Below, piece after piece: positions 14,027-39,170 of a stretch of 64,000 nucleotides of DNA. The translations under genes and the position numbers were made by a program. The stretch covers positions 1 to 64,000 of the forward strand of contig JAJZTS010000001.1 of the NCBI GenBank assembly GCA_021848725.1, given 5' to 3'. This DNA is from Pseudomonadota bacterium. GTDB taxonomy: Bacteria > Pseudomonadota > Gammaproteobacteria > Burkholderiales > Thiobacillaceae. Below the pieces are notes generated by a model. The model saw only the letters and a program-made list of their open reading frames with translations, did no database searches and was not told the DNA's origin. Position 1 is the stretch's first letter. Each line of letters begins with the position of its first letter.

Positions 14027-14524
14027 TCAACGCTCGCCGCGCAAGCGCAGTTCGTCGCGGATCGCGGCGAGCAACCCCTCGGTCGCGCTCTCGATCATGT
14101 CTAGCGCCAGTTCGAAGCGCTCCAAGTCCAGGCCGTAGGGGTCGGTGATTTCCCGCTCGCGATAGAGCCGGCTGAAGCTCATCAGCAGTTTCGGTTTCTG
14201 CCAGAGATCGGGTTCGCCCAGGCGATGCAGCGCCGTCATGTTCTTCATGTCCATCGCCAGCACGTGGTCGAAATGTTCGAGATCGGCGCGCGAAATCTGG
14301 CGCGAGCGCAGCGCCGTCATCGCATAGCCGCGCTGGCCGGCCGCCTGCTGGGCGTTGGCGTCGGGCGGCTCGCCGACGCGGAAGTCGTGGGTCGCGGCCG
14401 AGTCGATCAGCAGGTGTTCGAGCAGGCCGGTCCGGCTGGCCTTGTGGCGGAACACGGCCTCCGCCATCGGCGAGCGGCAGATGTTGGCGGCGCAGACGAA
14501 CAGCACGCCGATCTTATCGCCCAT
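14027..14524 (-). CDS. Low-molecular-weight protein-tyrosine phosphatase (Wzb-like)
   Basis: 165 residues. The P-loop C-x5-R is Cys11-AANIC-Arg17-S, and the general-acid loop DPYG is at Asp128-Pro-Tyr-Gly. Wzb-type phosphatases remove phosphates from the Tyr cluster of Wzc-type autokinases and control polymer length and export. A Wzc-like kinase is encoded three genes upstream in the same operon. The start overlaps the end of the polymerase gene by 11 bases. Confidence 0.9.
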   Translation of the reverse strand: MGDKIGVLFVCAANICRSPMAEAVFRHKASRTGLLEHLLIDSAATHDFRVGEPPDANAQQAAGQRGYAMTALRSRQISRADLEHFDHVLAMDMKNMTALHRLGEPDLWQKPKLLMSFSRLYREREITDPYGLDLERFELALDMIESATEGLLAAIRDELRLRGER

Positions 14525-24765: not shown

Positions 24766-26504
24766 GCCTGCTCGCTTGCCGCCACAGCCTGCCACTCGCC
24801 CACCCTCCCCGCCTCCACCCGCACCACGCCGTCGATCAGACCGGCCAGCTCCTCGTGCCGGTGCGTCACCACCACCACCGTCAGGCGGCCGTGCAAGGCA
24901 CGCAGAGATTCCAGCACCAGGCGGCGGTTGTCGGCATCCAGCGCGCCGGTGGCCTCGTCCAGGATCAGCAATTGCGGCCGCCTGAGCAGCGCGCGGGCCA
25001 GGGCCAGGCGTTGTTTCTCGCCGCCGGAGAGCTTGGCCCCGCGCTCGCCGACCTCGGTATCCAGCCCCCTCGGTAGACGCCGCACCAGATCGTCCAAGCC
25101 AGCTTGTGCCAGCGCCTGCCAGATCGCCGCGTCGTCCGGCGCGTCGTTGCCCCAGGCCAGGTTGTCGCGCACGCTGCCGGCCTGGATGATCGTCTCCTGC
25201 GGGATATAGGCAATGCCCCGGCACCAGCCGGGCGTCTGCGCCAGCGGCACGCTATCCACTAATATCGTGCCACTTTGCGGCGCATGCAGGCCACACAGCA
25301 GGTCGAGCAGCGTCGTCTTGCCCGCGCCCGAGGCGCCGACGATGGCCGTGGTCTTCAATGCCGGGATTTCCAGGTGCGGCACGCGCAAGGCCTGGTGCGA
25401 TTGCGCATGGCTGAATGCCACATTGTCGAACGCAATACCGCGCGCCAAAGGCGCCGCCGGCCCCTCTACTTCGGTCGGCGCGCGCTGTGCCTCGCAGGCG
25501 TCCATCAAGCCGCGCCAGGCAGTAAAGGCCGGCAGCATGTGCAGCAACTGCTGGCGGCCGCCATGCAACTCGGCGAGCTGCGGCAGCATGCGGGCGAAGA
25601 TCGCCACCATCACCAACAGCGTGGCCGGCGGCAGCTTGAACCAAACCAGCGCCGCATAACTAACAATGGCCAGCGCCAGCGCGCCGCCGGCGCGATGCAC
25701 CGCCTGCAAGCGCGTATGCGCCCGGTTAAATACAAGTTGCTGGCCACTGACCGACTCGATCTCCTGCCTGAAGCGGCGCACACTGCCCGCCTCCTCGCCG
25801 TGGATCTTGATCAGTTTTATCGCCGACAGGAATTCCTGAATCTGTTCGAACAGACGACGGTTGGCCAGGCTCAAGGCCTGGCCGCCCCGGCGCGTCACGG
25901 CATCGGCCCCGCGCAGCAGCAGCCACAGCACCAGCCCCGTGCTCAGGGCCAGCAGCGTCAGCGGGGTCGACAACCAGAACGCCACCGCGAGGTAGGCCAG
26001 GCCCAAAACCGCCACGGAAAAAAAGCGCAGCAAGAAATACGTGCCGCCGACGATGCGCTGCACCTCGCTGGTCAACACCCCGGCCAATTCACCGCCGTGG
26101 CGGTCGAGCAAGAAGCCCCAACGCGCCCGCGCGATCGCCGCATACAAGGCGCCGCGCAAATGATCGCCAAAGCGGATGAATAGATGCTGCGCGGTGCGCT
26201 CGCGGCACATGGCCAGTTGCGATTGCAGGAACACGATGGCCACGAAGGCGAGCAAGGCCGTTTCGAGATTCCAATCCAGCCCCAGGGCGGCAAGCATGCG
26301 CCCCGGCATGGGCAGACCGGCCTGCGGTAGCGGGCCGAGCACGCCGGCCAGCGCGAGCAGGGGCAGCAGCATCGCCAGCCCCGCGCCCTCCGCCAACGCC
26401 GCCGCGAGATTGAACGCCACCGCCTGCCGGATCGCGGGCGGATCGAAACGCAGGAAGGTCTGTAGATAGGCGCGCATGCCATCGCCCGTGGGAGGCGAGC
26501 TCAT
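24762..26504 (-). CDS. ABC exporter, fused membrane and ATPase domains (lasso D-like)
   Basis: About 580 residues from the ATG at 26504; an ATG at 26477 is equally possible, and a frame up to 26606 would run into the divergent gene. Six membrane segments span residues ~20-290. The ATPase domain has Walker A VGASGAGKTT, Q-loop IPQET, signature LSGGEKQRLALARAL, Walker B LLILDEATGALD and the switch His in VVVVTHR. The membrane-plus-ATPase half-transporter layout fits peptide or lipid exporters such as the lasso D protein. No N-terminal C39 peptidase is present, so leader removal must be done elsewhere. Confidence 0.85.
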   Translation of the reverse strand: MSSPPTGDGMRAYLQTFLRFDPPAIRQAVAFNLAAALAEGAGLAMLLPLLALAGVLGPLPQAGLPMPGRMLAALGLDWNLETALLAFVAIVFLQSQLAMCRERTAQHLFIRFGDHLRGALYAAIARARWGFLLDRHGGELAGVLTSEVQRIVGGTYFLLRFFSVAVLGLAYLAVAFWLSTPLTLLALSTGLVLWLLLRGADAVTRRGGQALSLANRRLFEQIQEFLSAIKLIKIHGEEAGSVRRFRQEIESVSGQQLVFNRAHTRLQAVHRAGGALALAIVSYAALVWFKLPPATLLVMVAIFARMLPQLAELHGGRQQLLHMLPAFTAWRGLMDACEAQRAPTEVEGPAAPLARGIAFDNVAFSHAQSHQALRVPHLEIPALKTTAIVGASGAGKTTLLDLLCGLHAPQSGTILVDSVPLAQTPGWCRGIAYIPQETIIQAGSVRDNLAWGNDAPDDAAIWQALAQAGLDDLVRRLPRGLDTEVGERGAKLSGGEKQRLALARALLRRPQLLILDEATGALDADNRRLVLESLRALHGRLTVVVVTHRHEELAGLIDGVVRVEAGRVGEWQAVAASEQA

Positions 26505-26579
26505 CCCGGCACGGCCGTCGAATGGTTGCCTGAAGAGCATGTTGTCATTGAAAGATCGTCCCTGAATCGTCGCTGGACT

Positions 26580-28055
26580 ATGACAGAATACGTCCGCCCC
26601 CGACAAGCGCCCGACCGCCGCCCTACTAAAACAAAACCCATGCTGACACCGCCTCTATCAGCCCTGAGCGCTTTCGCCGAACAGATCGACCGCCAGCGGG
26701 GCGAGCACGCTTCGCCGCTTGGCGATGCCGAATCCAAAAAACTGTCGGCGGCCTATCTCAAACTCGGCAAGACGATGATCGAAGCCGGACACATCGACGA
26801 GGGACTCGCCTGCCATGACAAGGCCCTGGGCCTGCGGCCGGACGACCTCGATCTGAACTACACGGCCCTGTTCATGTTGGAGCGGCTCAACCGCATCGAA
26901 CAGGCCTGGGCGGCCATGCTATCGCTCGAAGCCCGGCTCGGCGGCTTGTACGAATCGAGCAAAAAATTGTTCATCCTCAAGGCGCGCCTGGAATATCGCC
27001 GGGGCAACCGCGCGGTTTGCCGAGCCATGCTAGAGAAGTTTCTGGCCGAAAACCCCGCGCATTCCCATCGCTATCTCGCCTACGGCTGGCTGGGCAAACT
27101 GCTCGATGAGCTGGGCGAATACGATGCCGCGATGGCGGCCTTCGATGGCAAGAACGCCGCCCTGTTGAATAACCCCGGCGCCGCCGAACACCTCCGCCAG
27201 AACGACGCCGAACTGGCCGCCATCGACACCAGCCTCGATTGGTATCGCGGCCAGACCGGCCTCGGTTGGCAAGCCGCCGACACGCCAGCCGAGCTTGGCG
27301 AGCCCATATTGCTAGCAGGCTTTCCGCGCTCGGGCACGACGCTGCTCGACCAAATACTGGACGCGCACTCCGGCTTGGCGGTCGTCGAGGAAAGGCCGCT
27401 GCTGGCCGGCATCGCCGGCCGGTTCTTCGACGGAGCCGACAAATTAGCCGCCCTGCGCGATCTGAGCGGGCAAGACATCGACACCCTCCGGCGAACATAC
27501 TGGTCCAATGCCGCCGACATCCTGGGCCAGCCGCTTGGCGGGTGCCGCATGGTCGACAAGCTGCCGCTCAACATCATGCACCTCGATATCTACGCCCGGC
27601 TGTTTCCAGGCATCAAGATCGTCGTCGCGCTGCGCGACCCGCGCGACGTCATCCTCAGCAATCACATGCAGCTCTACCAACTCAATCCGTCCATGGCCGC
27701 CAATCTCAGCCTGGAACGCAGCGCCCGCTATTACGCGAAGGTCATGGGCCTGTATCTGCTTTTTCGCGAACGCCTGGCCGGCCAAATCCACGAGATCCGA
27801 TACGAGCGGCTTGTCTTCGAGCCCAGGCAGGAATGCGCCAAGCTGCTTCGCTTCCTCGGGCTCGAATGGGAAGAAGGGATCGAGCGCTTCCACGAAAACG
27901 CCAGGCATCGGCGTATCGCCACGCCCAGCTACGACCAGGTCACCCGGCCCATCCACCGGGACGCGGTGGCGCGCTGGACGAATTACGCGCCCCACCTCGA
28001 AGCGATACAACCCACATTGCAGCCATTCGTCGAAGCCTTCGGTTATGCGCGATAA
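26580..28055 (+). CDS. TPR-containing PAPS sulfotransferase
   Basis: 491 residues from the ATG at 26580; an ATG at 26640 is an alternative and neither has a strong ribosome site. Residues ~40-230 form a helical TPR-like region (HIDEGLACHDKALGLRPDDLDLNYTA). The sulfotransferase domain follows, with the 5'-phosphosulfate loop LLAGFPRSGTTLLDQIL (about 242-258) and the 3'-phosphate motif ALRDPRDVILS (about 354-364). It transfers sulfate from PAPS to a hydroxyl or Tyr acceptor. It is the first of a plus-strand group with the PqqD-like, kinase and second sulfotransferase genes, so the acceptor may be the modified peptide, or alternatively the EPS. Confidence 0.87.
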   Translation: MTEYVRPRQAPDRRPTKTKPMLTPPLSALSAFAEQIDRQRGEHASPLGDAESKKLSAAYLKLGKTMIEAGHIDEGLACHDKALGLRPDDLDLNYTALFMLERLNRIEQAWAAMLSLEARLGGLYESSKKLFILKARLEYRRGNRAVCRAMLEKFLAENPAHSHRYLAYGWLGKLLDELGEYDAAMAAFDGKNAALLNNPGAAEHLRQNDAELAAIDTSLDWYRGQTGLGWQAADTPAELGEPILLAGFPRSGTTLLDQILDAHSGLAVVEERPLLAGIAGRFFDGADKLAALRDLSGQDIDTLRRTYWSNAADILGQPLGGCRMVDKLPLNIMHLDIYARLFPGIKIVVALRDPRDVILSNHMQLYQLNPSMAANLSLERSARYYAKVMGLYLLFRERLAGQIHEIRYERLVFEPRQECAKLLRFLGLEWEEGIERFHENARHRRIATPSYDQVTRPIHRDAVARWTNYAPHLEAIQPTLQPFVEAFGYAR

Positions 28056-28091: not shown

Positions 28092-28436
28092 ATGCCGAAC
28101 CCAAGCCCAAGCCCAAGCCCAAGCCCAAGCCCAAGCCCAAGCCCAAGCCCAAGCCATGAATTGTCCCTGGCCTCGACGATATGCCGCGGCAAGGACGCCT
28201 TGTCCGCGCAAGTCGAGGACGCGGTCGTCTTGATGTCCATCGAAAAAGGCAACTATTACAGCCTGGACGCCATTGGCAGCGACATCTGGAACCGCATCGA
28301 ACAGGCCATCGCGGTCGGCGAACTCTGCGCCCGCCTCGCGAACGAATACGACGCCGACGCCGCCACGATCAACCGCGACGTCCTCGCGCTCCTAGCGCAA
28401 CTCGCCGAAGAAGGCTTCATCGAAATCCTGGCTTGA
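28092..28436 (+). CDS. PqqD-like peptide-recognition protein with (Pro-Ser)9 N-terminus
   Basis: 114 residues, preceded by an AGG ribosome site. After MPN comes nine Pro-Ser pairs, then a PqqD/RRE winged-helix domain (residues ~22-114) with VEDAVVLMSIEKGNYYSLDAIGSDIWNRIE and a C-terminal LLAQLAEEGFIEIL helix. PqqD-like RRE proteins bind leader peptides and deliver them to modifying enzymes; in lasso clusters this is the B1 protein. It is five bases from the HprK-like kinase gene. It could also be the PqqD member of the HPr-rel-A gene set known from EPS loci; the cyclase, B2 and precursor genes nearby favour the lasso reading. Confidence 0.85.
   Translation: MPNPSPSPSPSPSPSPSPSPSHELSLASTICRGKDALSAQVEDAVVLMSIEKGNYYSLDAIGSDIWNRIEQAIAVGELCARLANEYDADAATINRDVLALLAQLAEEGFIEILA
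28101..28154 (+). repeat. Nine perfect copies of the hexamer CCAAGC
   Basis: 54 bases of exact CCAAGC repeats, encoding (Pro-Ser)9 at the N-terminus of the PqqD-like protein. Because the unit is six bases, copy-number changes alter linker length but not frame. Confidence 0.97.
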
Positions 28437-28441
28437 GCGCG

Positions 28442-29365
28442 ATGCACAACGACATGCTTTTATGCGGCTGGCGGGTGCGCTCCGCCCTGCCCCTGCCCGA
28501 GCTGCTGCCCTGGCAAGGCGACGACCGCCCGGTCAATGTCGAAATCGCGGTCGGCGGCATTCCCCAACCCGAGGCCCAGCCCGTCTTCGTGCTGCCGCAC
28601 AGCAGGCTCTGGGCGGATGGCGCCTTTCTGCTCGCGCTCGACGGCGTCGGCCGCTTCTGGGTGCAAGGTGGACAGCGAGTTAAAGTGGAACCGGCGGCGG
28701 GCGTGGACGAATCCGAGCTGCGCGCCTTCCTGCTCGGCTCGGTGTTGGGCGTGCTCTGCCACCAGCGCGGTCTGCTGCCCATCCATGCCTCGGCCGTGCG
28801 CATCGGCGGCCGCGCCATCCTGATCGCCGGCAATTCGGGCGCGGGCAAATCCACGCTGGCGGCGGCACTCGGCGCGCGCGGCCACGCGCTGGCCGCCGAC
28901 GACGTGGCCGCGTTCGACCCGGCGCAAGGCCTATTGCTGCCGGCCTTTCCCAACCGCAAGCTGGCGACCGACGTGCTGGAAGCGTTGGCGCTGGACCACC
29001 GGGGCCTGGTGGCCAACCGCCCCGGCCAACCCAAGTTCCACGTGTCCGCGCAGGCGGGTTTCGATCCCGCGCCGCTGCCGGCGCTGGCCGTGTATCTCTT
29101 GAGCACGCGCAAGGCCCGGCAATCGGATGACATCGAACGCGCCGACCCGGCGTTGGCCATCGCCCGGCTCGACCGCATGGTCTACCGCCGCGCCATCGGC
29201 CTGCATATCCAGCCACGGCAAGCCTTGTTCCACGCGCTGTCCCGACTCATGCAAACCGCCACCGTCCATCTCCTGCCCAGGGACGAAGCGAAGCCGACGC
29301 CCGAACGGCTCGACCGTCTGGCCGAGCGAGTGGAGACCCACGCACGCGGGCTGGCGGCGCGATGA
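28442..29365 (+). CDS. HprK-related kinase
   Basis: 307 residues. The HPr kinase/phosphorylase C-terminal fold is marked by IHASAVRIGGRAILIAGNSGAGKST (P-loop at residues 130-138) and the acidic ALAADDVAAF (Asp153-Asp154). The N-terminal ~110 residues differ from true HprK, and no PTS HPr gene is near. In paeninodin-type lasso clusters such a kinase phosphorylates the C-terminal Ser of the precursor, and the predicted precursor here ends in Ser. The start is chosen at the ATG just after the PqqD stop; its stop overlaps the sulfotransferase start by four bases. Confidence 0.85.
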   Translation: MHNDMLLCGWRVRSALPLPELLPWQGDDRPVNVEIAVGGIPQPEAQPVFVLPHSRLWADGAFLLALDGVGRFWVQGGQRVKVEPAAGVDESELRAFLLGSVLGVLCHQRGLLPIHASAVRIGGRAILIAGNSGAGKSTLAAALGARGHALAADDVAAFDPAQGLLLPAFPNRKLATDVLEALALDHRGLVANRPGQPKFHVSAQAGFDPAPLPALAVYLLSTRKARQSDDIERADPALAIARLDRMVYRRAIGLHIQPRQALFHALSRLMQTATVHLLPRDEAKPTPERLDRLAERVETHARGLAAR

Positions 29366-30192
29366 GCGGCATCTACTGGCTCGCCTCCTACCCCAAGTCC
29401 GGCAATACCTGGCTGCGCCTGTTCCTGGAAAGCCTGGCCGCGGGCGGCGCGGCGCCCGACATCAATGCCGTGGAAGTCACCGGCAACGCCGCCGTGCGCG
29501 AAGCGTTCGACCATGTCCTCGACATCGAATCGAGCGACCTCACCGACGACGAGATCGCCCGCGCCCGGCCCCGCCTGTATGAAATCGAGGCCTGCACCGC
29601 CACCGCGCCGCTGCTGCTCAAGGCGCACGATGCCTGGCACCCCACGCCGGCCGACGAGCCGCTGTTTCCGCTCGCGGCGACCCTCGGCGCCATCTACCTC
29701 GTGCGCGACCCGCGCGACGTGGCGGTGTCGCTGGCCCACCACATGGGCCAGAGCATCGACCAGGCCATCGAGCGCATGGGCGACCCAAGGGCGACGATGG
29801 CCATGGCCGGCAAACGCCTGCCCAAGCAATTGCCGCAGCACCTCTCCACCTGGAGCGGCCACGTGGCAAGCTGGCTGGGCGCGCCGATCGAACGCTTGCT
29901 GCTGCGCTACGAAGACATGCTGGCCGACCCGGTGGCCCGCTTCGGCGAGGCCGCCCGTTTTCTCGGGCTCGATGCCGAACCGGACCAGATCGCCGCCGCC
30001 GTCGACGCGGTGCGATTCGAGCGCCTGCGCGCGGCGGAAGAGACACAGGGCTTCATCGAAGCGCAGCCGGGTGTCGAACGCTTCTTCCGGCGCGGCGTCG
30101 CCGGCGGCTGGCGCGACAGCCTCACGCCGGCGCAGGCCGCGCGCATCGAGGCCGAGCACGGCCCCACCATGCGCAAGCTGGGCTATCTATAG
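29362..30192 (+). CDS. PAPS sulfotransferase
   Basis: 276 residues, single sulfotransferase domain. The 5'-phosphosulfate loop is ASYPKSGNTWLRLFL (about residues 8-22) and the 3'-phosphate motif is YLVRDPRDVAVSLAHH (about 113-128). The C-terminal RFFRRGVAGGWRDSLT matches the usual RKG-x2-GDW PAPS-binding loop. Cytoplasmic. It overlaps the kinase gene by four bases, so it is co-translated with PqqD-like protein and kinase. Likely sulfates the peptide product or a related small molecule. Confidence 0.9.
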   Translation: MSGIYWLASYPKSGNTWLRLFLESLAAGGAAPDINAVEVTGNAAVREAFDHVLDIESSDLTDDEIARARPRLYEIEACTATAPLLLKAHDAWHPTPADEPLFPLAATLGAIYLVRDPRDVAVSLAHHMGQSIDQAIERMGDPRATMAMAGKRLPKQLPQHLSTWSGHVASWLGAPIERLLLRYEDMLADPVARFGEAARFLGLDAEPDQIAAAVDAVRFERLRAAEETQGFIEAQPGVERFFRRGVAGGWRDSLTPAQAARIEAEHGPTMRKLGYL

Positions 30193-30375: not shown

Positions 30376-30903
30376 ATGCAACCAATAGTAGGGGAAATAA
30401 AACTCTGGGCGATCGACTACGCGCCGAAAGGCTGGGCGCTTTGCAACGGCGCCCTGCTTCCCATCAACCAAAATCAGGCGCTGTATTCGCTGCTTGGCAC
30501 CAAGTACGGCGGCGATGGCGTCACCACCTTCGCCTTGCCCGATCTGCGCGGGCGCGTGCCGGCCGGCTTCGGCCAATCCGCACCGACCATGGGCGGACAG
30601 GCCGGCAGCGAGACCGTGACGCTCACCGCGCAGACCGCGCCGCAGCATATCCACTTCGTCAAAGTCACCTCGGGCAACGGCGACATGGTCGGCGGCCTGG
30701 GCAACCACATCGCGGCGGCGGTCACCCGGGTCGACCCCATCACCGGCGTGAACCTGTATGCAGCGGCGGGCGGCGCCACGGTACCGCTCGCGCCGGCGAC
30801 AGTCAGCAGCTCGGGCGGTAACTTGGCGCACGACAATATGCAGCCCTCGCTCGCGCTGAATTATTGCATCGCCACCGTCGGCGTTTACCCGAGCCGTCCT
30901 TAA
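30376..30903 (+). CDS. Tail-collar domain protein 1 (microcystin-dependent-protein-like)
   Basis: 175 residues with a GAGAGG ribosome site. The collar domain is residues ~1-60: VGEIKLWAIDYAPKGWALCNGALLPINQNQALYSLLGTKYGGDGVTTFALPDLRGRVP. The C-terminal part (LAHDNMQPSLALNYCIATVGVYPSRP) is the typical family end. No signal peptide. First of three tandem paralogues with no other phage structural gene nearby, so it is not part of a prophage. Function in free-standing collar proteins is unknown. The 183 bases upstream contain a GC-rich imperfect hairpin (about 30201-30222) but no clear promoter. Confidence 0.88.
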   Translation: MQPIVGEIKLWAIDYAPKGWALCNGALLPINQNQALYSLLGTKYGGDGVTTFALPDLRGRVPAGFGQSAPTMGGQAGSETVTLTAQTAPQHIHFVKVTSGNGDMVGGLGNHIAAAVTRVDPITGVNLYAAAGGATVPLAPATVSSSGGNLAHDNMQPSLALNYCIATVGVYPSRP

Positions 30904-30925: not shown

Positions 30926-31462
30926 ATGGCAGATTGTTACATGGCAGAAATCCGCTCCTTCGCGGGCAGAAACACGCTTATCCCGTCGGGCTGGCATTTA
31001 TGCGACGGCAGCCTACTCAGTATCGCCGACTACAATGCGCTTTACTCCCTGCTGGGCACCAACTTCGGCGGCGACGGCGTGACCACTTTCGGCCTGCCCG
31101 ACCTGCGCGGCCGCCTGCCCATCGGCTCGGGGCAAGGAACGGGGCTCACACCCCGAGCCTTCGCGAGCAAATTGGGCAGCGAAACGGCAACCCTCACCGC
31201 CGACCAGACTCCCGCGCACACGCACGCCTTCACGGTGACCACCGCTGCCGCGACGGGCAACTCGCCGGCCAACATGCTTTATGCCAACCCGGCCCCGAAC
31301 ATCTTCTACGCGGACCAACAGACCCCCGGCTCACAGTCGCAGGTGCTCGCCGCCGATACCGTATCGAACGCGGGCGCGGGGCTGCCGCACGAGAACCGCA
31401 TGCCCAGCCTGGCCGTCAATTACATCATCGCCCTCAACGGCATTTTCCCGTCGCGTCCATAA
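30926..31462 (+). CDS. Tail-collar domain protein 2
   Basis: 178 residues, with a strong CAGGAGGA ribosome site. Same layout as its neighbours: MAEIRSFAGRNTLIPSGWHLCDGSLL at the start, NFGGDGVTTFGLPDLRGRLPIGSG, and MPSLAVNYIIALNGIFPSRP at the end. The Cys in (W/L)CDG is conserved among the three copies. Gap of 22 bases from copy 1; no signal peptide. Confidence 0.9.
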   Translation: MADCYMAEIRSFAGRNTLIPSGWHLCDGSLLSIADYNALYSLLGTNFGGDGVTTFGLPDLRGRLPIGSGQGTGLTPRAFASKLGSETATLTADQTPAHTHAFTVTTAAATGNSPANMLYANPAPNIFYADQQTPGSQSQVLAADTVSNAGAGLPHENRMPSLAVNYIIALNGIFPSRP

Positions 31463-31479: not shown

Positions 31480-32025
31480 ATGTCAGAACCCTACATCGGC
31501 GAGATTCGCGCCTTCGGCTTCGGTTTTTATCCCGTGGGCTGGCTGCCTTGCAACGGGACGCCCCTGCCCATTTCGCAGAACACGCCGCTATTTGCGGTAA
31601 TCGGCACCAGCTACGGCGGCGATGGCCAGACCACCTTCAACCTCCCCAACCTGAACGGCACGGCCATGTTAGGCACGGGCCAGGGGCCGGGCTTGAGCAA
31701 CTACCAGCTTGGAGAACAAGCCGGGACAGCCGGCGTCACCCTGATCGAGTCGGAGATGCCGCCGCACAACCACACCGTCACCGGCATCAACGCGAAAGCC
31801 GCGGACGTCTATGCGGCCCCTATCGCCGATATCTCCCGCCTCAGTCGTGCAAGCACCCCTACTGGCGTGTGCAATGCCTATAGCGATCAGGCGGCCAACG
31901 CCACCCTGGCCCCGCAGGCGCTCGCGCCGTTTCCCGGCCAAAGCGGGTCGCACGAGAACCGCCAGCCCTGCCTGACCGTGTATTACGCCATTGCCAGCGA
32001 GGGCGTTTTCCCCACCCCGCCCTGA
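31480..32025 (+). CDS. Tail-collar domain protein 3
   Basis: 181 residues, with CAGGAGGA seven bases upstream of the ATG at 31480. Collar motif IGEIRAFGFGFYPVGWLPCNGTPLP with SYGGDGQTTFNLPNLNG, and C-terminus QPCLTVYYAIASEGVFPTPP. It is the most divergent of the three. The gene is followed by a strong terminator, which ends this plus-strand group. Confidence 0.9.
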   Translation: MSEPYIGEIRAFGFGFYPVGWLPCNGTPLPISQNTPLFAVIGTSYGGDGQTTFNLPNLNGTAMLGTGQGPGLSNYQLGEQAGTAGVTLIESEMPPHNHTVTGINAKAADVYAAPIADISRLSRASTPTGVCNAYSDQAANATLAPQALAPFPGQSGSHENRQPCLTVYYAIASEGVFPTPP

Positions 32026-32042
32026 TCGAGGGTAATAAAGCA

Positions 32043-32077
32043 ACGGGGCCGGTCTTGCGACCGGCCCCGTCTTTTTC
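32043..32077 (+). terminator. Rho-independent terminator after the tail-collar genes
   Basis: A perfect 12-base-pair stem (32043-32054 with 32059-32070), a TTGC loop and a T-rich run (TCTTTTT). It lies between the plus-strand collar genes and the convergent precursor-peptide gene. On the minus strand the same stem is followed by a weaker T run and may act there as well. Confidence 0.92.
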
Positions 32078-32105: not shown

Positions 32106-32288
32106 TCACGATAAGGTCGAGGTGCCTGCACCGTCGTTGCCTGGATTAAGCATGCCTTCGGTCAAGCCGGCGATGGACACCGCCGCCAGGCGCGGCGCCT
32201 GCCAGGGTTTTTTCTCGCTGCCGCCCGGGCTGCCTTGAAGCTCGCGCGGGGCCTTGCCGTCCGGGGTTTCGCTGCGCATCGTTCCCAT
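32106..32288 (-). CDS. Predicted lasso-peptide precursor
   Basis: 60 residues from the ATG at 32288, with AAGGGTGG five bases upstream; the frame is open to 32336 without a better start. The leader has W-QA-P-R-L followed by a Thr two residues before the predicted cut (WQAPRLAAVSIAGLTE), which matches the Y/W-x2-P-x-L...T-x rule of lasso leaders. The predicted core is GMLNPGNDGAGTSTLS: Gly1 and Asp8 would form an 8-residue macrolactam, leaving an 8-residue tail that ends in Ser. The gene is 72 bases downstream of the cyclase on the same strand. Alternatives: another type of modified peptide using the same Asn-synthetase-like enzyme. Identity as a precursor is inferred; ring size is a prediction. 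Confidence 0.75.
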   Translation of the reverse strand: MGTMRSETPDGKAPRELQGSPGGSEKKPWQAPRLAAVSIAGLTEGMLNPGNDGAGTSTLS

Positions 32289-32360
32289 CTCATCCACCCT
32301 TGATCTCGATTGCTTGAATGCCTGCCAATCTAGCACAAGCGCGCAGCGAATAAAACCCGG

Positions 32361-34286
32361 CTACAGGCCGCCCGCCTCGGCCCAGCGCAGGAAACGGCCC
32401 ACGTGCAAGGCGCGCGGCAGCATCAGCGTGATCTCGATCTCGTTGTCCCAGTCGCGCACCACGGCGGCCAGCCTGGGCAGATCGATGGCGCGCGCCGCGA
32501 GCGGCGAGGCCCGCAAGGCCTCGATCTCGGCCAGCAACGTGGGGCGCAGCGCAGTCATGCGGTGCGGGAGTTCCGGATTCTGGCTGCCGATCAGGTTGTT
32601 TTGCAGCACGGCGGGCGGCAGGCGCCCGGCCAAGGTACGGCGCGGCAGACGGCGGAATTCGCCGTCCTTGAGGAACTGCTCTTCCGGCAGGGCCAGACAG
32701 AAATCGATCAGGCGGATGTCCAGAAGCGGCGCGCGGGTCTCGACGCCGGTCACGGCGCGCAGCGCGGTGGCGATGTCGTTGCCGTGCTCCGAGCGCGCGA
32801 GCATCTCCACGCGTTCGGCCAGGGCGGTTCGCGCCCCTTCCAGCCGGGGCGTATAGCCGGCGCGCCAGCAGCGCCCGGCCAGATCGATGTCGCGGGCGAA
32901 GCCGGGGTGGATGGCGCTGAAACCCGACCACAACTCGGCCTCGCCGGTCTTCAGCCGCCGCCGCCACTTCGCCAGCCACGGCGGTTCCAGCGGCCGCAAC
33001 ACGTCGCGCCGTAACAAGGCCAGCCAGTCAAAGCCATAAGGGCGGCGACGCCCGGTCAGATACAACTCGCGGGCAAGGCGCAGCCAGCGGCCGCCGCGCA
33101 ACATGGCGGCGAGCTCGCGCAGGCCGTCGTGGCTCCAGGCCGGGTTGCCCCCCTCGCCGGTGAGCAGCACGCTTATCCCGGCCGCCCGTAAATGTTCATA
33201 GCCGGGCAGCAGCCAGCCGAGGTTGGTCACGTTGCGCGCCGGCAGGCCGGCCGCCTCGAAGAAAGGCTCGGGCGTAGTCTCGATCCAATGCGGCGCGTCG
33301 GAGCTGGCCAGCACCGGGGTGATATTGGGGTGCATCGCGGCGATGGCCGCGACATAGGGCCGTTCGTCGGGATACCAGCAAGATTTCAGCTTGGGCAAGG
33401 CCAGGCCCACGGGCGGCACAGAAGTGATCGTCGTCAAGCGGCCCGGCGCCAAGCGCAATGCCGCGCTGGTGGCCACCGCCGAGGAGTCCAGGCCACCGCT
33501 CAGGTTGGCGGCGAGGCCGCCCTTGGCCCGCAGGCGGCAGGCCACGGCGCGGTCGAGTTGTTCGCGCGCGGCCTCGGCGTATTCGGCGTCGCAGGCCAGG
33601 CGCAGCGTGGCCTTGGGCTCCGGCGACCAATAGCGGTTTGCGCGCAGGCCCTGGGCGTCGAACACGGCCGTATGCGCCCTGGGTACCCGGCGCACGCCCC
33701 GGTAGAAGGTCTCGCCGGCATCGCGCGTGTTGAGAATAAGGAAATCGGCGATACCTAGCTCGTCGATTTCCCGTGGCACGCCGGGCAGCGCCAGCAGCGC
33801 GCGGTAGGTGGTGGCGAAGGCGACGAAACCCGCGCCCCGGTGGTAATACAAGGTGCGCCGGCCGAGCTGGTCGCGCGCCAGCAGCAGTTGGCGCGCGTCC
33901 TTGTCCCATAAGGCCAGCGCGAAATCGCCGATAAGCCTGGGCAAGGCCGTCTCGCCCCAGCGTTCCAGCGCGGCGAGCAGGAGTCGGCCATCGGGCACGG
34001 TTTCTTCATTGAGGCGTATGCCCAGGGCCGCCGCGATCTCTTCGCGGTTGTCCAGGCGGCCGTCGTAGACCAGCGCCAGCCGGCCACCCGCGCCTTGCCA
34101 GGGTTGGCGCTCGGCCAGGTCTTCGTGCGTGACATGGCGCTGTCGCGCCAGCAGGCCGGCCGGGCCATCCGCCCAATAGACCGGCTCGGCCAGGCCGGGC
34201 GCGGCTAGGCGGTTGGCGGCGGACTGCAACTCGGCGGCATGCACCGGGGCGCCGTCGAAACGCACGATACCGGCGATCGCGCTCAT
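32361..34286 (-). CDS. Asparagine-synthetase-like lasso cyclase (C protein)
   Basis: 641 residues. The N-terminal half looks like the glutamine amidotransferase fold of AsnB (GRLALVYDGRLDNREE, GDFALALWDKDARQLLLARDQLGRRTLYY) but starts MSAIAG, lacking the catalytic Cys2, so it cannot use glutamine. The synthetase half has the ATP pyrophosphatase loop SGGLDSS (263-269) and VLLTGEGGNPAWSHDG. Lasso cyclases (McjC type) activate the Asp/Glu side chain with ATP and form the isopeptide ring. The context of B1, B2, exporter and precursor supports that role. The start overlaps the upstream methyltransferase stop by four bases. Confidence 0.85.
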   Translation of the reverse strand: MSAIAGIVRFDGAPVHAAELQSAANRLAAPGLAEPVYWADGPAGLLARQRHVTHEDLAERQPWQGAGGRLALVYDGRLDNREEIAAALGIRLNEETVPDGRLLLAALERWGETALPRLIGDFALALWDKDARQLLLARDQLGRRTLYYHRGAGFVAFATTYRALLALPGVPREIDELGIADFLILNTRDAGETFYRGVRRVPRAHTAVFDAQGLRANRYWSPEPKATLRLACDAEYAEAAREQLDRAVACRLRAKGGLAANLSGGLDSSAVATSAALRLAPGRLTTITSVPPVGLALPKLKSCWYPDERPYVAAIAAMHPNITPVLASSDAPHWIETTPEPFFEAAGLPARNVTNLGWLLPGYEHLRAAGISVLLTGEGGNPAWSHDGLRELAAMLRGGRWLRLARELYLTGRRRPYGFDWLALLRRDVLRPLEPPWLAKWRRRLKTGEAELWSGFSAIHPGFARDIDLAGRCWRAGYTPRLEGARTALAERVEMLARSEHGNDIATALRAVTGVETRAPLLDIRLIDFCLALPEEQFLKDGEFRRLPRRTLAGRLPPAVLQNNLIGSQNPELPHRMTALRPTLLAEIEALRASPLAARAIDLPRLAAVVRDWDNEIEITLMLPRALHVGRFLRWAEAGGL

Positions 34287-35071
34287 GCCCCGCCCCGCTT
34301 GCGAAAGACGACGTCGTTGTACACGGCGCCGACCAAGCGACCTTCGTCGGGGCCATAGAGCGGCGTGTCGGCCCGGGCCTTGTTGCCCGGCAGGCTAAAG
34401 ACCGGCTCGAAGCCGGCGGCCGCCGCCGTGTCGGCGAAGCGAAAGTTGCTGCCGAGGATGGCCAGATAACCGCCCGGCTTGAGGCAGCGGCAGAGCGAGG
34501 CCACGATCTCTTCGAAGTCGGCGAAGCGTATGAGGTGGCCGCATGTCTCCGGCTGGCGCACGCCCAACTCGCCATGGCGCAGCACCGACAGGCAAAAGAC
34601 CGCGTCGTAGGACGCTTCGGCCTCGCCATGCGGCGTTGCGGCTTGGACAAAGCGCATGCGGGCATCGCCGCTGCGCGCTTGTTTCTTTTGGCAGACACGA
34701 ATGCTGCGCGGATTGATGTCGATGCCGACGATCTCGGCCTGGGGTAGATAGGTGCATAGGCTGAAGGCCCCTTCGCCGGTGGAGCACCCGTAGGACAGGA
34801 TGCGCGGTGCCGCGCAGCCCCGTAGCTGTCGCTCGATGAATGAAAAAATGGCGGGGTGGCGGTCGAACGAGGTCAGCGCGTGGGGCTGGAACAGCTTTTC
34901 CGGGCGGGCGCGCATCAGGCGGCGTTCGCTACGATAGCCGGGGTCGAGCACGTAGCGGCAGGCACGGAACAAGGGCACGGCGCCGGGGATTTTTTTGACG
35001 GCCGCCCTTAGGCGGCGCGCCCCGATTTCAAGCGCGCGGTTCGAGGCGGGAATGCGGGCGGTGAGTTTCAT
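34283..35071 (-). CDS. Class I SAM-dependent methyltransferase (CheR-like layout)
   Basis: About 262 residues from the ATG at 35071 (MKLTARIP); an ATG at 35152 would overlap the divergent GNAT gene. Motif I is ILSYGCSTGEGAFSL (about 90-104) with IVGIDINPRSIRVCQKKQ next, then DAVFCLSVLRHGEL and LKPGGYLAILGSNF. The GCSTGEG and VGIDIN pattern resembles CheR-type methyltransferases, though the chemotaxis-specific N-terminal domain is missing. It is coupled to the cyclase gene by a four-base overlap, so the substrate may be the precursor or product peptide. Confidence 0.75.
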   Translation of the reverse strand: MKLTARIPASNRALEIGARRLRAAVKKIPGAVPLFRACRYVLDPGYRSERRLMRARPEKLFQPHALTSFDRHPAIFSFIERQLRGCAAPRILSYGCSTGEGAFSLCTYLPQAEIVGIDINPRSIRVCQKKQARSGDARMRFVQAATPHGEAEASYDAVFCLSVLRHGELGVRQPETCGHLIRFADFEEIVASLCRCLKPGGYLAILGSNFRFADTAAAAGFEPVFSLPGNKARADTPLYGPDEGRLVGAVYNDVVFRKRGGA

Positions 35072-35150
35072 AGGCCGGGGCAGTATGTCAGCGCCTAGGG
35101 CATGGGTCAACGCGGCTACAATGCGTCGACTATTAGTTTGAAAGCCCGCC

Positions 35151-35657
35151 ATGTCAGACAGTAACGCACCATCGACCCTGCGCCCCGAGACCGAGGCCGA
35201 CCTGGCCTTCGTGAAAGAACTCTACCGTTCGACGCGGGACGACTTGCTGCAGGCCGGCCTGCCGAAGCCGATGCTGGATAGTCTGATGGACATGCAGTTC
35301 CGGGCCATGCAAATGACCTACCGCAATCAATATCCCGATGCCGATTACACGATTGTCGAAGCGGATGGCGCGGCCATCGGTCATTTGATCGTGCATCGAA
35401 ACGCCGAGGCCATCCGCCTGGTCTATATCGCCCTGCTGCCGCCACTGCGCGGCCAAGGTCTGGGCGGCAAGCTGGTTCGCGCCTTGCAAAACGAGGCCGC
35501 CCAGGCCGGCAGGCCCCTGGCGCTTTCGGTCTCCACGCAAAGCGCGGGGGCGCAACGCCTGTACGACGCGCTGGGTTTTAGCGTGGTTAAAAACGACGGC
35601 GCGTATTTGGAGATGGTTTGGCCAGAATCCAAAATTCAGGCCTTCATCGAGACCTGA
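35151..35657 (+). CDS. GNAT-family N-acetyltransferase
   Basis: 168 residues. The acetyl-CoA binding motif is VYIALLPPLRGQGLGGKLVRALQNEA (about 88-113), followed by the GNAT motif B phrase AQRLYDALGFSVVKNDGAYLEMVW. Divergent from the methyltransferase-cyclase-precursor operon. The acceptor is unknown: an amine of a small molecule or peptide is possible. Confidence 0.87.
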   Translation: MSDSNAPSTLRPETEADLAFVKELYRSTRDDLLQAGLPKPMLDSLMDMQFRAMQMTYRNQYPDADYTIVEADGAAIGHLIVHRNAEAIRLVYIALLPPLRGQGLGGKLVRALQNEAAQAGRPLALSVSTQSAGAQRLYDALGFSVVKNDGAYLEMVWPESKIQAFIET

Positions 35658-35701: not shown

Positions 35702-35818
35702 CTAGGGGAACGCTGATTTATTCGGTTTTGTCGTTCCCGCGAAGGCGGGAACCCAGTCAAATCAAAGAACTGGATACCCGCTTTCGCGGGTATGACGAAT
35801 AAATCAGCGTTTCCCTAG
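35702..35818. mobile_element. MITE-like element with REP-type hairpins
   Basis: 117 bases bounded by inverted repeats matching at 22 of 23 positions, starting CTAGGG and containing AACGCTGATTTATTCG, with CTAG at both outer ends (possibly the target duplication). Inside are two hairpins of the common proteobacterial REP type (TTCCCGCGAAGGCGGGAA and TACCCGCTTTCGCGGGTA). No open frame fits inside, so it would depend on a transposase elsewhere. The right-hand CTAG supplies the stop codon of the oxygenase-like gene. Confidence 0.75.
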
Positions 35819-36579
35819 TTGATGCCAGACAACTCCGGCATGCCAAAGAAAGCGGCCCATCGAGCCGGATACACCAAATGCTTCGTGCCCTTTGGAATGA
35901 AATGAAAAAAAACGAGATGGCAGAAATTTTTCTCATGCCTCTGCGGAATAGGCTCTCGATAATGCCACTGGCTGCTGCCTGAGAATATGATGGCGTTGCC
36001 CGGCTCAAGGCTATAGGAATAAAATCGAAGGGCCGGATCGTTTTTGATTTCATTCCTCCAGTCGTCAATGCCATATGGGCACGCCTCCGGCCAAGGAACG
36101 ACTTGGCTGAAATGGATGGGCCATGGGGCGGATTGTTCGAGGCATAAGTCCAGCGTCCACTTCGCCAAGGGCGCATCGAGATGTGGGCTCAAACTGCCGA
36201 TACCGCTGTATAAACTAAGGAAGTGGTAGCTCGGTTCGACCTGTTCGTTGACTTCCTCGCTCACCCTATCGGTAAACGCTTCTTGAATTTGCGCGAACAA
36301 GGGAAGTTCATAGGCCTTGTGCCGCCCCATGAAAAGAAATTCATCCTTATTCAAACGGTCGGCGGGAATGGCTCGAATGGTATCCAGCGCTTTTTGAAAA
36401 GCATCCTCGCGAAGCGGTTTATCGATTTGTTTTTCTCGAAAATTCTCGGGGGTTCTTAAAATATCGAATGCCTCGACGAATTCTCCGAGTCTCTCCGGGT
36501 AATGCCGCCTGACAATCTCCTTCGCGGAAACAAATCGGCTAAGCCAGCCGGAGTCGTACCAGGGGAATTTCCTGCTCAT
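35815..36579 (-). CDS. Putative 2-oxoglutarate/Fe(II) oxygenase-like protein
   Basis: 254 residues with an AAGGA ribosome site. The region SGIGSLSPHLDAPLAKWTLDLCLEQ gives a His133-x-Asp135 pair. Further on LEPGNAIIFSGSSQWHYREPIP gives a distal His206 and a nearby Arg, the facial-triad arrangement of 2OG-Fe(II) oxygenases. Overall similarity to a named family is not clear to me. Five bases downstream of a methyltransferase gene in the same operon. Its stop codon lies in the border of the MITE-like element, so the natural C-terminus may have been altered slightly. Confidence 0.55.
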   Translation of the reverse strand: MSRKFPWYDSGWLSRFVSAKEIVRRHYPERLGEFVEAFDILRTPENFREKQIDKPLREDAFQKALDTIRAIPADRLNKDEFLFMGRHKAYELPLFAQIQEAFTDRVSEEVNEQVEPSYHFLSLYSGIGSLSPHLDAPLAKWTLDLCLEQSAPWPIHFSQVVPWPEACPYGIDDWRNEIKNDPALRFYSYSLEPGNAIIFSGSSQWHYREPIPQRHEKNFCHLVFFHFIPKGTKHLVYPARWAAFFGMPELSGIN

Positions 36580-36584: not shown

Positions 36585-37202
36585 TCAGCCCCGGACAAAA
36601 ATGGGTTTAAGGATAAAGAACCCCGCCGGCGGCCCCTGCCTCGGCTCGCCGTGGTAGTGGGTATCGTATGACTGCTCGATGAGGAAATACGCTTCCAACG
36701 GGCCCAGTCGCTTTTGCTGCCCGGCGTTGATCTTGAGCAGGAACAGGCCATCCGGCTTGAGCAGGCCGTGCACATTGCGGGCATAAACCGGCCACTCCCA
36801 AACCTTCAAGGTCGCATAACAGCCTCGGTCGGCGATGACGTCGAAGCGATCCTTCAGGCCCGTGTGCAGGATATTGTCGGCGGCGAAACGCAGTGTGTCG
36901 GCCCCCAGGCCCGCCATCTCGGCATGGCGCCTGGCCTGCTCGATGGCCGTGGCGGAGACATCCACCGCCGTCACTTCGAAGCCCGCCCGCGCGTAGCAGA
37001 TCGCCTGCCTGCCCACGCCAGTGCCGATCTCCAGCAACCGGCCGCGCCGCACACCGAACCGGTCGAGCGCCTCGGCGAAATCGCGGTCAAGCGTGGCGAG
37101 TTCGGGCAAGAAGGCACCCTCGCCCGTCAGGTGTTCTCCCTGGCGATAGCGCGCTTCCCAGCGCAGCGTGATCGCGAGCGTCTTCAGTTTCTCGTCGTTC
37201 AT
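36585..37202 (-). CDS. Class I SAM-dependent methyltransferase
   Basis: 205 residues from the ATG at 37202 (GGA five bases upstream); an ATG at 37208 is the alternative. Motif I is LLEIGTGVGRQAICYARAGFEVTAVDVSATAIEQAR (about 56-91), with FDVIADRGCYATL and LLKPDGLFLLKI later, similar to TPMT/Tellurite-resistance-type methyltransferases. Forms an operon with the oxygenase-like gene and is divergent from the B2 protease gene. Confidence 0.8.
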   Translation of the reverse strand: MNDEKLKTLAITLRWEARYRQGEHLTGEGAFLPELATLDRDFAEALDRFGVRRGRLLEIGTGVGRQAICYARAGFEVTAVDVSATAIEQARRHAEMAGLGADTLRFAADNILHTGLKDRFDVIADRGCYATLKVWEWPVYARNVHGLLKPDGLFLLKINAGQQKRLGPLEAYFLIEQSYDTHYHGEPRQGPPAGFFILKPIFVRG

Positions 37203-37281
37203 TTCCATCCGTGCATTCCGGCAATGGCGCGGACTATCGCATATCCGCGCGTGGTGTCCAATGCCTTGGCCCGAGGCTACA

Positions 37282-37776
37282 ATGCCCTGGCAAATGATGA
37301 TCTCAACACTAATCCGCAAGGCGCGCGGCTTCGCGCGCCGCTCCCGCTTCGAACAGGCCTGGTTCGTGCCGGCTTGGCTGCTGCTGGGCGCGGGCCGGCT
37401 GTTGATTCTGGCCGTGCCGTTCCGCTCGCTGGCCGGGCATCTGGGCATGCGCGCGGGCATCGCGCCTTGGGCGCCGCTAATCAATGCACGGCGCGAGGCC
37501 AAGGCCTTGGCCATTTCGCGCGTGATACGGATGGCGGCGAGATATACACCGTGGACATCGAATTGTTTTGTGCAAGCGGTGGCGGCGCGGGTTCTGCTCG
37601 GCATCCACGGCATTCCCTATTGTCTGTTCTTCGGCGTCGGGCGTGACCCCGGCGCGGAGCTTCAGGCCCATGCCTGGGTGGTCTCGGGCCGGGTACAGGT
37701 CAGCGGCGGCGAGAGTTTCGACAAATTCACCGTGGTGGGCTGCTTTGCCGCGCCGGAACTGGCGGTGGATCAGTAG
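37282..37776 (+). CDS. Lasso peptide B2 protein (transglutaminase-like leader peptidase)
   Basis: 164 residues, with GAGG five bases upstream of the ATG. The catalytic Cys95 lies in TSNCFVQAVAARVLLGIHGIPYCLFFGV and His130 in LQAHAWVVSGRVQVSGG, the signature of B2 (McjB C-terminal) proteases that remove the leader before ring closure. The Asp expected about 12 residues after the His is not obvious (Gly142; Glu144 and Asp147 are nearby). B1 is not fused; it is the separate PqqD-like gene 9 kb away. The stop overlaps the convergent phosphotransferase gene by seven bases. Confidence 0.85.
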   Translation: MPWQMMISTLIRKARGFARRSRFEQAWFVPAWLLLGAGRLLILAVPFRSLAGHLGMRAGIAPWAPLINARREAKALAISRVIRMAARYTPWTSNCFVQAVAARVLLGIHGIPYCLFFGVGRDPGAELQAHAWVVSGRVQVSGGESFDKFTVVGCFAAPELAVDQ

Positions 37777-39170
37777 ACGTTCTTGCCGACGAAGCCGCGC
37801 AGCAGGGTCAGCAGCACGATCTTAAAATCCAGCCACAGCGACCAGTTCTGGATGTATTCCAGGTCGTATTCGATGCGCTTTTGCATCTTGTCCAGGGTGT
37901 CGGTCTCGCCGCGCCAGCCGTTGATCTGCGCCCAGCCGGTGATGCCTGGCTTGACCTTGTGCCGCAGCATGTAGCCGCTGATAAGGCGGCGGTATTGCTC
38001 GTTGTGCGCGACGGCATGCGGGCGCGGCCCGACCACCGACATCGAGCCTTGCAGCACGTTGAAGAACTGCGGCAGCTCGTCGAGCGAGGCCTTGCGCAGG
38101 ATGGCGCCCAGGGCGGTGACGCGGGCATCGTCGCGGCCGGCCTGGGGCACGTGGTCGCCGTCCTGGCACACGGTCATCGAGCGGAATTTCCACACCTCGA
38201 CCACCGCGCCGTTGAGGCCGTAGCGCCGCTGCTTGAACAGCACCGGGCCGGGCGAGGACAGCTTTACCGCCAGCGCAACGACGAGCATGAGCGGCGCGGC
38301 CAATAACAAGATCAGGCTGCTCAGGGCGATGTCTTCCAGGCGCTTCACCCAGCCGTGCAGGCCGAAGAACGGCGTTTCGTACACGCTGATCAAGGGCATA
38401 CCGCCGAAGTCCATCCAGCGCGAATACATCAGGCCGGAGACGAATAGGTCGGGCGCGACGAAGACCGATGCGGTGGTGTCGGCCAGCCGCTCGACCAGTT
38501 CCTCGATTCGCCGCTCTTCGCGCAAGGGCAAGGCGAGGTACACGGCATCGATCTCGCCGGCATGCGCCTTGTGCAACATGGCGTCCACCGCGCCCAGCGG
38601 ATATTCCGCATCGCCTACTTGCACGGACGCGGCCGTGGGCTCGGGGTCGAACACCCCCTTCACCGCCAGACCGGCCCAGGGCATGGCGGCCAAATGTTCG
38701 ATCAAGCGATGGCCCAAAGGGTTGTTGCCGACGATAGCGACCGTGCGAATGTTCGCGCCCCGACGGCGAGCTTGGCGCAACAGGCCGCGCGCCAGCAGGC
38801 GCAAGGCGGCCAGCGCGACAGGCACCGCGACGAACCAGGTCAGCATCATGGCGCGGGAGAAGAGCGCCGAAGTCTTGGTCGCGAATGCCAATACCAGCAA
38901 GGCGAACACCACGAACGACCAGATGGCCGCCACCGAGCGAATTTCCTCGGCCAGCGAGCTGGTGCGCCACGAGCGGTAAATGCCCTGCGTCTCGGCCAGC
39001 AAGGCGAATAGCGTGGCCGCCAGCAGCGCCGCCAATACCCGCTCGGCATCCAGCTTGCTGTCGGACCAGACCAGCATCGCGCCGTATAGGGCGAAGATCA
39101 GGGCGATGTCCAGCACGCGCTGTAGCAGCGACACGCGCGAGGCATGGGCGTGCAGGTAGCCCCTAAGCAT
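37770..39170 (-). CDS. Undecaprenyl-phosphate sugar phosphotransferase (WcaJ-like)
   Basis: 466 residues. Four membrane segments in the first ~130 residues are followed by a Rossmann-like domain (TVAIVGNNPLGHRLIEHL), a further membrane helix near 280-300 and the C-terminal bacterial sugar transferase domain with VWKFRSM, SLDELPQFFNVLQGSMSVVGPRPHAV and KVKPGITGWAQINGWRGETDT. It loads the first sugar-1-phosphate (usually glucose) onto undecaprenyl phosphate and so starts EPS repeat-unit assembly. It is the last gene of the right EPS operon, and the only initiating enzyme in the window. Confidence 0.93.
   Translation of the reverse strand: MLRGYLHAHASRVSLLQRVLDIALIFALYGAMLVWSDSKLDAERVLAALLAATLFALLAETQGIYRSWRTSSLAEEIRSVAAIWSFVVFALLVLAFATKTSALFSRAMMLTWFVAVPVALAALRLLARGLLRQARRRGANIRTVAIVGNNPLGHRLIEHLAAMPWAGLAVKGVFDPEPTAASVQVGDAEYPLGAVDAMLHKAHAGEIDAVYLALPLREERRIEELVERLADTTASVFVAPDLFVSGLMYSRWMDFGGMPLISVYETPFFGLHGWVKRLEDIALSSLILLLAAPLMLVVALAVKLSSPGPVLFKQRRYGLNGAVVEVWKFRSMTVCQDGDHVPQAGRDDARVTALGAILRKASLDELPQFFNVLQGSMSVVGPRPHAVAHNEQYRRLISGYMLRHKVKPGITGWAQINGWRGETDTLDKMQKRIEYDLEYIQNWSLWLDFKIVLLTLLRGFVGKNVY

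Follow-up and report, generated by a model that had tools for sequence, protein, structure and literature searches.

Gene content of the locus

The window (the whole stretch of 64,000 nucleotides that was analysed) belongs to a draft genome of 2.38 Mb in 107 contigs, which is 89.5% complete. It carries the genes of a predicted lasso peptide of the kinase type, and the core lasso enzymes are all encoded within 14 kb (Table 1). B1, B2 and the cyclase occur together, with PF05402, PF13471 and PF00733 over the Pfam cut-offs; the cyclase and B1 are above the Pfam cut-offs but below those of the NCBIfam lasso models (NF033535 and NF033536).

Table 1. Features of the lasso cluster and of the surrounding exopolysaccharide locus (window coordinates).
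Feature	Position	Strand	Remarks
Wzy	14514-15953		exopolysaccharide locus, one side of the lasso cluster
Wzz/tyrosine kinase	16574-18742		same side as Wzy; glycosyltransferases and an acyltransferase on to 23476
Nucleotidyltransferase (N)	23509-25224	-	PF14907 1e-63, ORF residues 187-441; ORF exceeds the domain, start only predicted
ABC exporter (D)	24762-26606	-	PF00005, PF00664 over cut-off
TPR-sulfotransferase	26526-28055	+	PF13469 9e-32; just upstream of B1
B1, PqqD-type RiPP recognition element	28092-28436	+	PF05402 1e-20; NF033536 67.8 bits, cut-off 80
HprK-like kinase (K)	28442-29365	+	PF07475 34.4 bits, cut-off 33.3; His / P-loop / Asp-Asp pattern
Sulfotransferase (S)	29362-30192	+	PF00685 6e-25; 4-nt overlap with K
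Tail-collar protein 1 of 3	30376-30903	+	PF07484 7e-29
Tail-collar protein 2 of 3	30926-31462	+	PF07484 4e-24
Tail-collar protein 3 of 3	31480-32025	+	PF07484 6e-24; weak T4 gp12 match, E 0.0065
G+C-rich hairpin	32042-32071	.	between collar 3 and precursor; T run after it on + strand, weaker T stretch on - strand
Lasso precursor (A), candidate	32106-32288	-	60 aa; leader W-x2-P-x-L, T-E at -2/-1; core GMLNPGNDGAGTSTLS C-terminal
Lasso-type macrolactam cyclase (C)	32361-34286	-	asparagine-synthetase fold; NF033535 3e-97, 326.8 bits, cut-off 525; PF00733, PF13537 over cut-off
Class I methyltransferase	34283-35152	-	PF13847 1e-13; 4-nt overlap with cyclase start
GNAT acetyltransferase	35151-35657	+	PF00583 3e-11; usual companion of the collar triplet
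B2 leader peptidase, Transglut_core3	37168-37776	+	PF13471 9e-21; own-genome search; start only predicted
WcaJ	37770-39170		TIGR03023 over cut-off; other side of the lasso cluster
WcaI-type and other glycosyltransferases	to ~47 kb		WcaJ side

The cyclase has an SGGLDSS loop, and a serine replaces its N-terminal cysteine (MSAIAGI). In an alignment of B2 across seven homologues, the cysteine of SNCF and the histidine of AHAW are invariant, and no invariant aspartate follows the histidine. The nearest solved chains are 9x90 and TbiB1 (5v1u) for B1, and Teg14 and Teg12 for sulfotransferase S. The N-terminus of B1 (28092-28160) consists of Pro-Ser repeats that come from a short tandem DNA repeat, and the start codon may be further in. 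The initial annotation had placed the precursor in a cluster with an HprK-like kinase, and the kinase is there: its sequence shows a histidine, the P-loop GNSGAGKST with its lysine, and an Asp-Asp pair, which is the pattern (His-Lys-Asp-Asp, or His-P-loop-Asp-Asp) that a review gives for lasso kinases (PMC9266682).

The methyltransferase is possibly a tailoring enzyme; relatives of it are found beside B2/B1 in two Gallionella loci (L134 and L137). A 254-aa protein encoded at 35815-36579 has no Pfam match; a 43% identical relative adjoins a lasso-like cyclase in another locus (L072), and it may also be a tailoring enzyme. The three collar genes are convergent with the precursor gene, and the hairpin between them is a likely terminator, terminator-like sites overall being no more numerous than in shuffled sequence (12 versus 11.7). 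The whole cluster is embedded midway in a Wzx/Wzy-type exopolysaccharide locus (5787-47912), which also contains many glycosyltransferases, FkbM methyltransferases and an acyltransferase.

The small ORF of 60 residues that had been proposed on the cyclase strand as the precursor gene was confirmed: it runs from an ATG at 32288 to a stop that ends at 32106, 72 nt downstream of the cyclase gene. Its translation is MGTMRSETPDGKAPRELQGSPGGSEKKPWQAPRLAAVSIAGLTEGMLNPGNDGAGTSTLS, and the C-terminal part reads WQAPRLAAVSIAGLTE-GMLNPGNDGAGTSTLS, with W-x2-P-x-L in the leader, Thr at -2, Gly1, Asp8 and a C-terminal Ser. The start is only predicted, since the frame remains open as far as another possible start, a GTG at 32336 (76 aa), and an ATG within it would shorten the product to 57 aa. 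No family of Pfam or NCBIfam matched this protein (NCBIfam at E<=10; E<=1). A loose version of the motif (aromatic-x2-P-x-hydrophobic, then T-x-[GASC]) occurs in 12 open segments of the 64-kb window, the precursor among them. The leader/cut motif is therefore not significant by itself, and since the bare motif is not rare, the worth of the precursor rests on its place and its homologues.

Homologous loci and the register of the core

A profile search of relatives' contigs, built from the alignment of seven B2 sequences, confirmed 90 of 115 stretches, of which the best 80 (L100-L179) were used for comparison; with the cyclase as query, none of eight candidate stretches was confirmed. Gene content was assigned by tblastn at 1e-4, and contig ends or the 10-kb flank truncate many of the loci. 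Among the best 80 of the 90 loci, matches were found for B1 (62), the kinase (57), the cyclase (54), the nucleotidyltransferase (46), the ABC protein (44), the sulfotransferase (39, 38 of them also with the kinase), the collar proteins (14), GNAT (13), the methyltransferase (3) and the TPR-sulfotransferase (2, by tblastn). The cluster is patchy, since B2 was found in 3 of 117 family genomes, the own genome counted, and in none of five genomes of the same genus (G001-G005).

Against the best 80 of the 90 loci, a tblastn search with the precursor (composition correction off) gave matches in Methylomonas fluvii (L123, 7e-10) and in Gallionella (L134, 3e-5, and L137, 0.002), each located among lasso genes. 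The absence of such a small gene beside orthologous cyclases had been named beforehand as what would refute the proposal, and in these three loci, which belong to the closest kinase clade, the gene is present. That clade comprises the window, L103, L123, L134 and L137 (SH-aLRT 100), in a quick tree which has long branches (L100, L115, L129, L161, L173, L176 and L178); on the 6.7-kb contig of L103, neither a cyclase match nor a precursor was seen.

The nearest cluster among the best 80 of the 90 loci is that of Methylomonas fluvii EbB, which has a mirrored layout and three collar genes. Its proteins are 57% (cyclase), 68% (sulfotransferase), 63% (kinase), 63% (B1) and 56% (TPR-sulfotransferase) identical to those of the window, and between its cyclase and collar genes lies MKMIEKETNEVLQAVQVRKIWSAPKMTVVDISDSTENMGNPGNDGSGTSTLS. 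The core keeps NPGNDG[A/S]GTSTLS, shared with the window. The two Gallionella precursors end in WKMPEVKVFSVDDMTE-GTTGPGTDGSGGVS (L134) and WEMPEVGVFSVDDMTE-LTVLGGNDGSGGNS (L137). The alignment with homologues that the initial annotation had suggested shows that T-E, Gly6, Asp8, Gly9, Gly11 and the final Ser are invariant in all four precursors, all of which have the leader [Y/W]-x2-P-x-[hydrophobic] with Thr at -2. Over the last 20 codons, the window and Methylomonas fluvii have 9 identical, 7 synonymous and 4 nonsynonymous codons, which means that the core is held at the protein level. Since the record of Methylomonas fluvii EbB is that of a strain, a near-identical core is available for tests outside a metagenome.

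The spacing of Gly1 and Asp8 for an eight-residue ring, also claimed at first, stands in part: Asp8 is kept in the four precursors, while residue 1 is G, N, G and L in the window, L123, L134 and L137, respectively. In lasso peptides, core position 1 is usually a small residue (Gly, Ala, Ser or Cys). A larger sample of 75 precursor-like ORFs near lasso genes was gathered by script from 46 of the best 80 of the 90 loci and from the window, position 1 being set two residues past the last Thr at offset 12-16 from the Tyr/Trp. This set was filtered by overlap with known matches and long ORFs, so that true candidates were lost (L123, L102 and L141) and some false ones were surely kept. An acidic residue (D/E) occurs at position 8 in 35 ORFs and at position 9 in 27, and at each of the other positions 1-16 in at most 11. 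Fifty-nine of the 75 have D/E at 8 or 9, compared to a mean of 14.4 (sd 3.3, maximum 27) in 5000 shuffles per core, and 63 have it at positions 7-9. Residue 1 is G (16), A (15), S (11), F (8), L (6), K (5), Q (5) or another, so that G, A and S make up 42 of 75. Gly1 is thus rejected as a defining feature, and the predicted precursors follow the lasso rule for the ring acid without a fixed first residue.

The C-terminal Ser, another feature read in the initial annotation, is found in the window, L123, L134 and L137, and in 62 of the 75 ORFs. A clear link with the kinase does not emerge from this sample, as the Ser occurs in 55 of 65 ORFs where the locus has a kinase match and in 7 of the 10 others, the window being counted among the latter despite having a kinase. 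In collar-bearing loci, 12 candidate precursors were found (L100, L102, L105, L116, L123, L130, L134, L137, L138, L139, L141 and L171), which all end in Ser. Eight fit an acid at 8 or 9; the other four are off the ring rule, L141 having no Thr at -2 and L100, L138 and L102 having the acid at 10-12. Of the two remaining collar-bearing loci, L103 showed no precursor and L113 lacked a convincing one.

In a search of 148 relatives besides the own genome, no homologue of the precursor above chance was obtained (best foreign E 0.001), matches at E<=1 in 93 of the 149 genomes being at chance level. The two best foreign matches (G148 and G054; regions L075 and L074) cross longer ORFs in other frames, and a leader scan around those in G049, G024 and G127 gave nothing precursor-like near lasso genes. 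Other lasso-like cyclases with HprK (G127:C1:1750k, G051, G048, G063 and G085) are too distant to inform the core.

Several loci show further peculiarities. On one scaffold of Methylomonas fluvii EbB there are two lasso-type clusters that differ from each other (L118 and L123, about 49 kb between locus starts), and the L118 precursor has the leader motif twice in tandem. The Litchfieldella anticariensis locus has four related precursor-like ORFs in a row (L107:7679-9538). In addition to ordinary precursors, three Halomonas loci have a third ORF, in which the leader is the same and the C-terminal part is long, basic and Trp-rich (L126:13487-13654, L128:13482-13700 and L163:13456-13623), which is possibly another type of RiPP using the same RRE. 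Contigs titled Akkermansia muciniphila (L152) and Chitinophaga pinensis (L164) carry a proteobacterial-looking B2, and these bins may be contaminated or mislabelled.

The tail-collar triplet and the exopolysaccharide setting

Collar genes occur in 14 of the best 80 of the 90 loci, as three genes each, except in L103, which is cut by the contig end and has two. The records concerned are from Sideroxydans, Methylobacter, Methylomonas, Gallionella, Burkholderiales, Azospirillum, Magnetococcales, Kangiellaceae and others. In 11 of the 14 loci, the nearest lasso gene is less than 1 kb from the collar genes (by tblastn edges); in L141 the distance is 5.3 kb. In L102, L105 and L130, the precursor sits between the collar genes and the kinase, all on one strand. 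GNAT is found in 11 of the 14. The kinase is present in 13 of 14 collar-bearing and 44 of 66 other loci (best 80 of the 90), an association which is not significant (p 0.057). The collar label requires 8 changes on the kinase tree, compared to a mean of 12.7 when shuffled (none of 500 shuffles as low), and at least three by starred branches; the collar genes were hence gained or lost repeatedly.

As a control, collar 3 served as query against 117 genomes of the family (8 matched) and 350 of the class (20 matched), the own genome being in both sets. This yielded seven triplets besides that of the window (G056; G584, G676, G741, G757, G789 and G804). In the 7-20 kb around each, none of the seven has a match to B1, B2, the cyclase, the kinase, the sulfotransferase or the nucleotidyltransferase, and six have GNAT; the L192 stretch has a generic ABC match. 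Because GNAT accompanies the triplets where lasso genes do not, the collar triplet and GNAT form a module of their own, which is often placed beside lasso genes. The Fisher comparison of 14 of 80 with 6 of 350 sets loci against genomes and serves as a rough guide only. That the collar genes are phage remnants present by chance is not favoured, given their occurrence in 14 of the best 80 of the 90 lasso loci, mostly within 1 kb, and the lack of lasso genes around the control triplets. No phage genes were noted beside the three short tandem genes. The stand-alone triplets with GNAT (L192-L198) often adjoin very large ORFs (1874 to 2993 aa in L192, L194 and L196), perhaps encoding surface proteins. 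A full-text literature search returned no paper in which lasso peptides and tail collar are both named; papers with 'lasso peptide' and 'phage tail' exist.

The short tail fibre of T4, gp12, binds LPS. The collar domain PF07484 is present in all three window proteins, the third of which weakly matches gp12, but the window differs from T4 in having three short tandem genes and a GNAT gene. The recurrent collar neighbours give a hint of a role of the lasso peptide at the cell surface. A further proposal, which we regard as quite unlikely, is that of a 'collar-lasso' group, in which a phosphorylated, perhaps glycosylated or sulfated, lasso peptide would work with a secreted or surface collar triplet that binds the exopolysaccharide or LPS of the producer; the surface matrix would retain the peptide or be its target, and the peptide would not diffuse freely as an antibiotic.

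As far as the flanks show, proteobacterial clusters do not generally share the exopolysaccharide setting of the window: matches to six exopolysaccharide queries taken from the window were found in 10 of the best 80 of the 90 loci (8 for the WcaJ query). Within the fetched flanks, only 2 of the 14 collar-bearing loci matched (L102 and L116), so that collar loci are not exopolysaccharide loci in general. In Bacilli, paeninodins and the linear LPP family are described as often lying near capsule loci, and the role of these peptides, as of kinase-type lasso peptides in general, is given there as unknown (PMC13381572). The window provides a predicted proteobacterial example within an exopolysaccharide locus, where the recurrent collar triplet offers a way to test function.

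Proposed maturation, alternatives and comparison with known systems

Precursor A very probably encodes a ribosomal lasso peptide that is matured by B1, B2, the cyclase and the kinase and exported by the ABC protein. At the sequence level, this reading is based on the precursor gene with its set of enzymes, on the conserved register (Thr at -2, D8/E9 and a C-terminal Ser) and on selection acting on the core; from these we infer the chemistry and the threaded shape. B1 would bind the W-x2-P-x-L leader and B2 would cleave after Thr-Glu. The cyclase would then connect the Asp8 side chain with the amine of the first residue (here Gly), so that a ring of eight residues and a tail of eight, GAGTSTLS, result, and the ABC protein would export the peptide.

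HprK homologues phosphorylate the C-terminal Ser on the precursor in Firmicutes and Proteobacteria (PMC8498205, PMC9266682), and B1 can assist a kinase, one kinase acting instead on Ser3, in BsfA (PMC10368454). Considering the His, P-loop and Asp-Asp of K and the conserved Ser, phosphorylation of the C-terminal Ser by K is our best guess. The nucleotidyltransferase may put a sugar on the phosphate, as in pseudomycoidin, which is a guess. Some Firmicutes clusters have a sulfotransferase gene, for which the source gives no function (PMC8498205). Tyrosine is absent from 20 of the 26 cores of sulfotransferase loci (window included); if the sulfotransferase acts on the peptide, its target is thus probably Ser/Thr or an added sugar, although this too is guesswork. 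These cores, most of them without Tyr, offer a candidate target set for the enzyme.

The same lack of tyrosine also fits an alternative which we consider unlikely, namely that the lasso gene is real but that K and S serve the exopolysaccharide or the collar proteins, the peptide being neither phosphorylated nor sulfated. The location inside an exopolysaccharide locus agrees with this, as does the distribution of the sulfotransferase, found in 13 of 14 collar-bearing versus 26 of 66 other loci (best 80 of the 90; Fisher p 0.00025). However, translational coupling links K and S to B1 in the window, K occurs with B1 in 52 of the best 80 of the 90 loci, the precursor lies between the collar genes and K in the three one-strand loci, and the C-terminal Ser is kept.

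A second alternative concerns the shape of the product, which could be cyclised from residue 1 to Asp8 and yet unthreaded, as a small branched-cyclic phosphopeptide. Leu15 is the only bulky residue of the tail, so that a threaded form would have no evident plug, and the tails of close relatives read GSGGVS and GSGGNS. Known lasso cyclases yield threaded products, and a phosphate or sugar carried by Ser16 might act against unthreading, which makes this alternative decidedly improbable.

That the product is linear and phosphorylated, with the cyclase acting elsewhere, is very improbable. The linear polyphosphorylated peptides (LPP) of Bacillota are the model for such a product, and their clusters share an RRE, an HprK-like kinase, an NTP transferase and an exporter with lasso clusters, the window included. 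On the other hand, they have no macrolactam cyclase and use an SpI-type peptidase (PMC13381572), whereas the window has a cyclase, directly upstream of the precursor, and B2, and acids at positions 8/9 are strongly enriched. The window peptide is therefore not assigned to the LPP. Lastly, a chance open frame, which the motif arising by chance and the lack of a family match might suggest, is scarcely credible and in practice refuted by the homologues L123, L134 and L137, where the core is conserved at corresponding places, and by its mostly synonymous codon changes.

The lasso reading places the window peptide among kinase-type lasso peptides, and it would work like this known kind. With the paeninodin systems (PadeK, ThcoK and SyanK), the window shares split B1/B2, the cyclase, the nucleotidyltransferase, an HprK-like kinase with the His, P-loop and Asp-Asp residues, the C-terminal Ser and the W-x2-P leader. 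SyanK shows that kinase-type lasso peptides exist in Proteobacteria (PMC8498205, PMC9266682). In contrast to paeninodin, residue 1 varies among the close relatives of the window precursor, sulfotransferases and collar genes lie beside it, and its source is not a member of the Bacillota. Because the NCBIfam paeninodin model NF033524 does not match the window precursor (L134 and L159 reach 14.8 and 12.5 bits, cut-off 27), it is not filed as a paeninodin.

The pseudomycoidin cluster also combines a kinase and a nucleotidyltransferase, the two nucleotidyltransferases being likened here by presence and not by family, and pseudomycoidin carries one or two hexoses on the phosphate (PMC8498205). The Bsf cluster of Bradymonas (BsfK, BsfB1, BsfB2) has B1, B2, cyclase, ABC, kinase and nucleotidyltransferase genes in common with the window, but it has Ile at -2, a phosphorylated Ser3 in the core and a C-terminal Asp (PMC10368454), whereas the window has Thr at -2, Leu as residue 3 and a C-terminal Ser. 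Compared to these systems, the new features are the predicted core family NPGNDG[A/S]GTSTLS, the variable first residue among close relatives and the collar triplet that recurs beside lasso genes.
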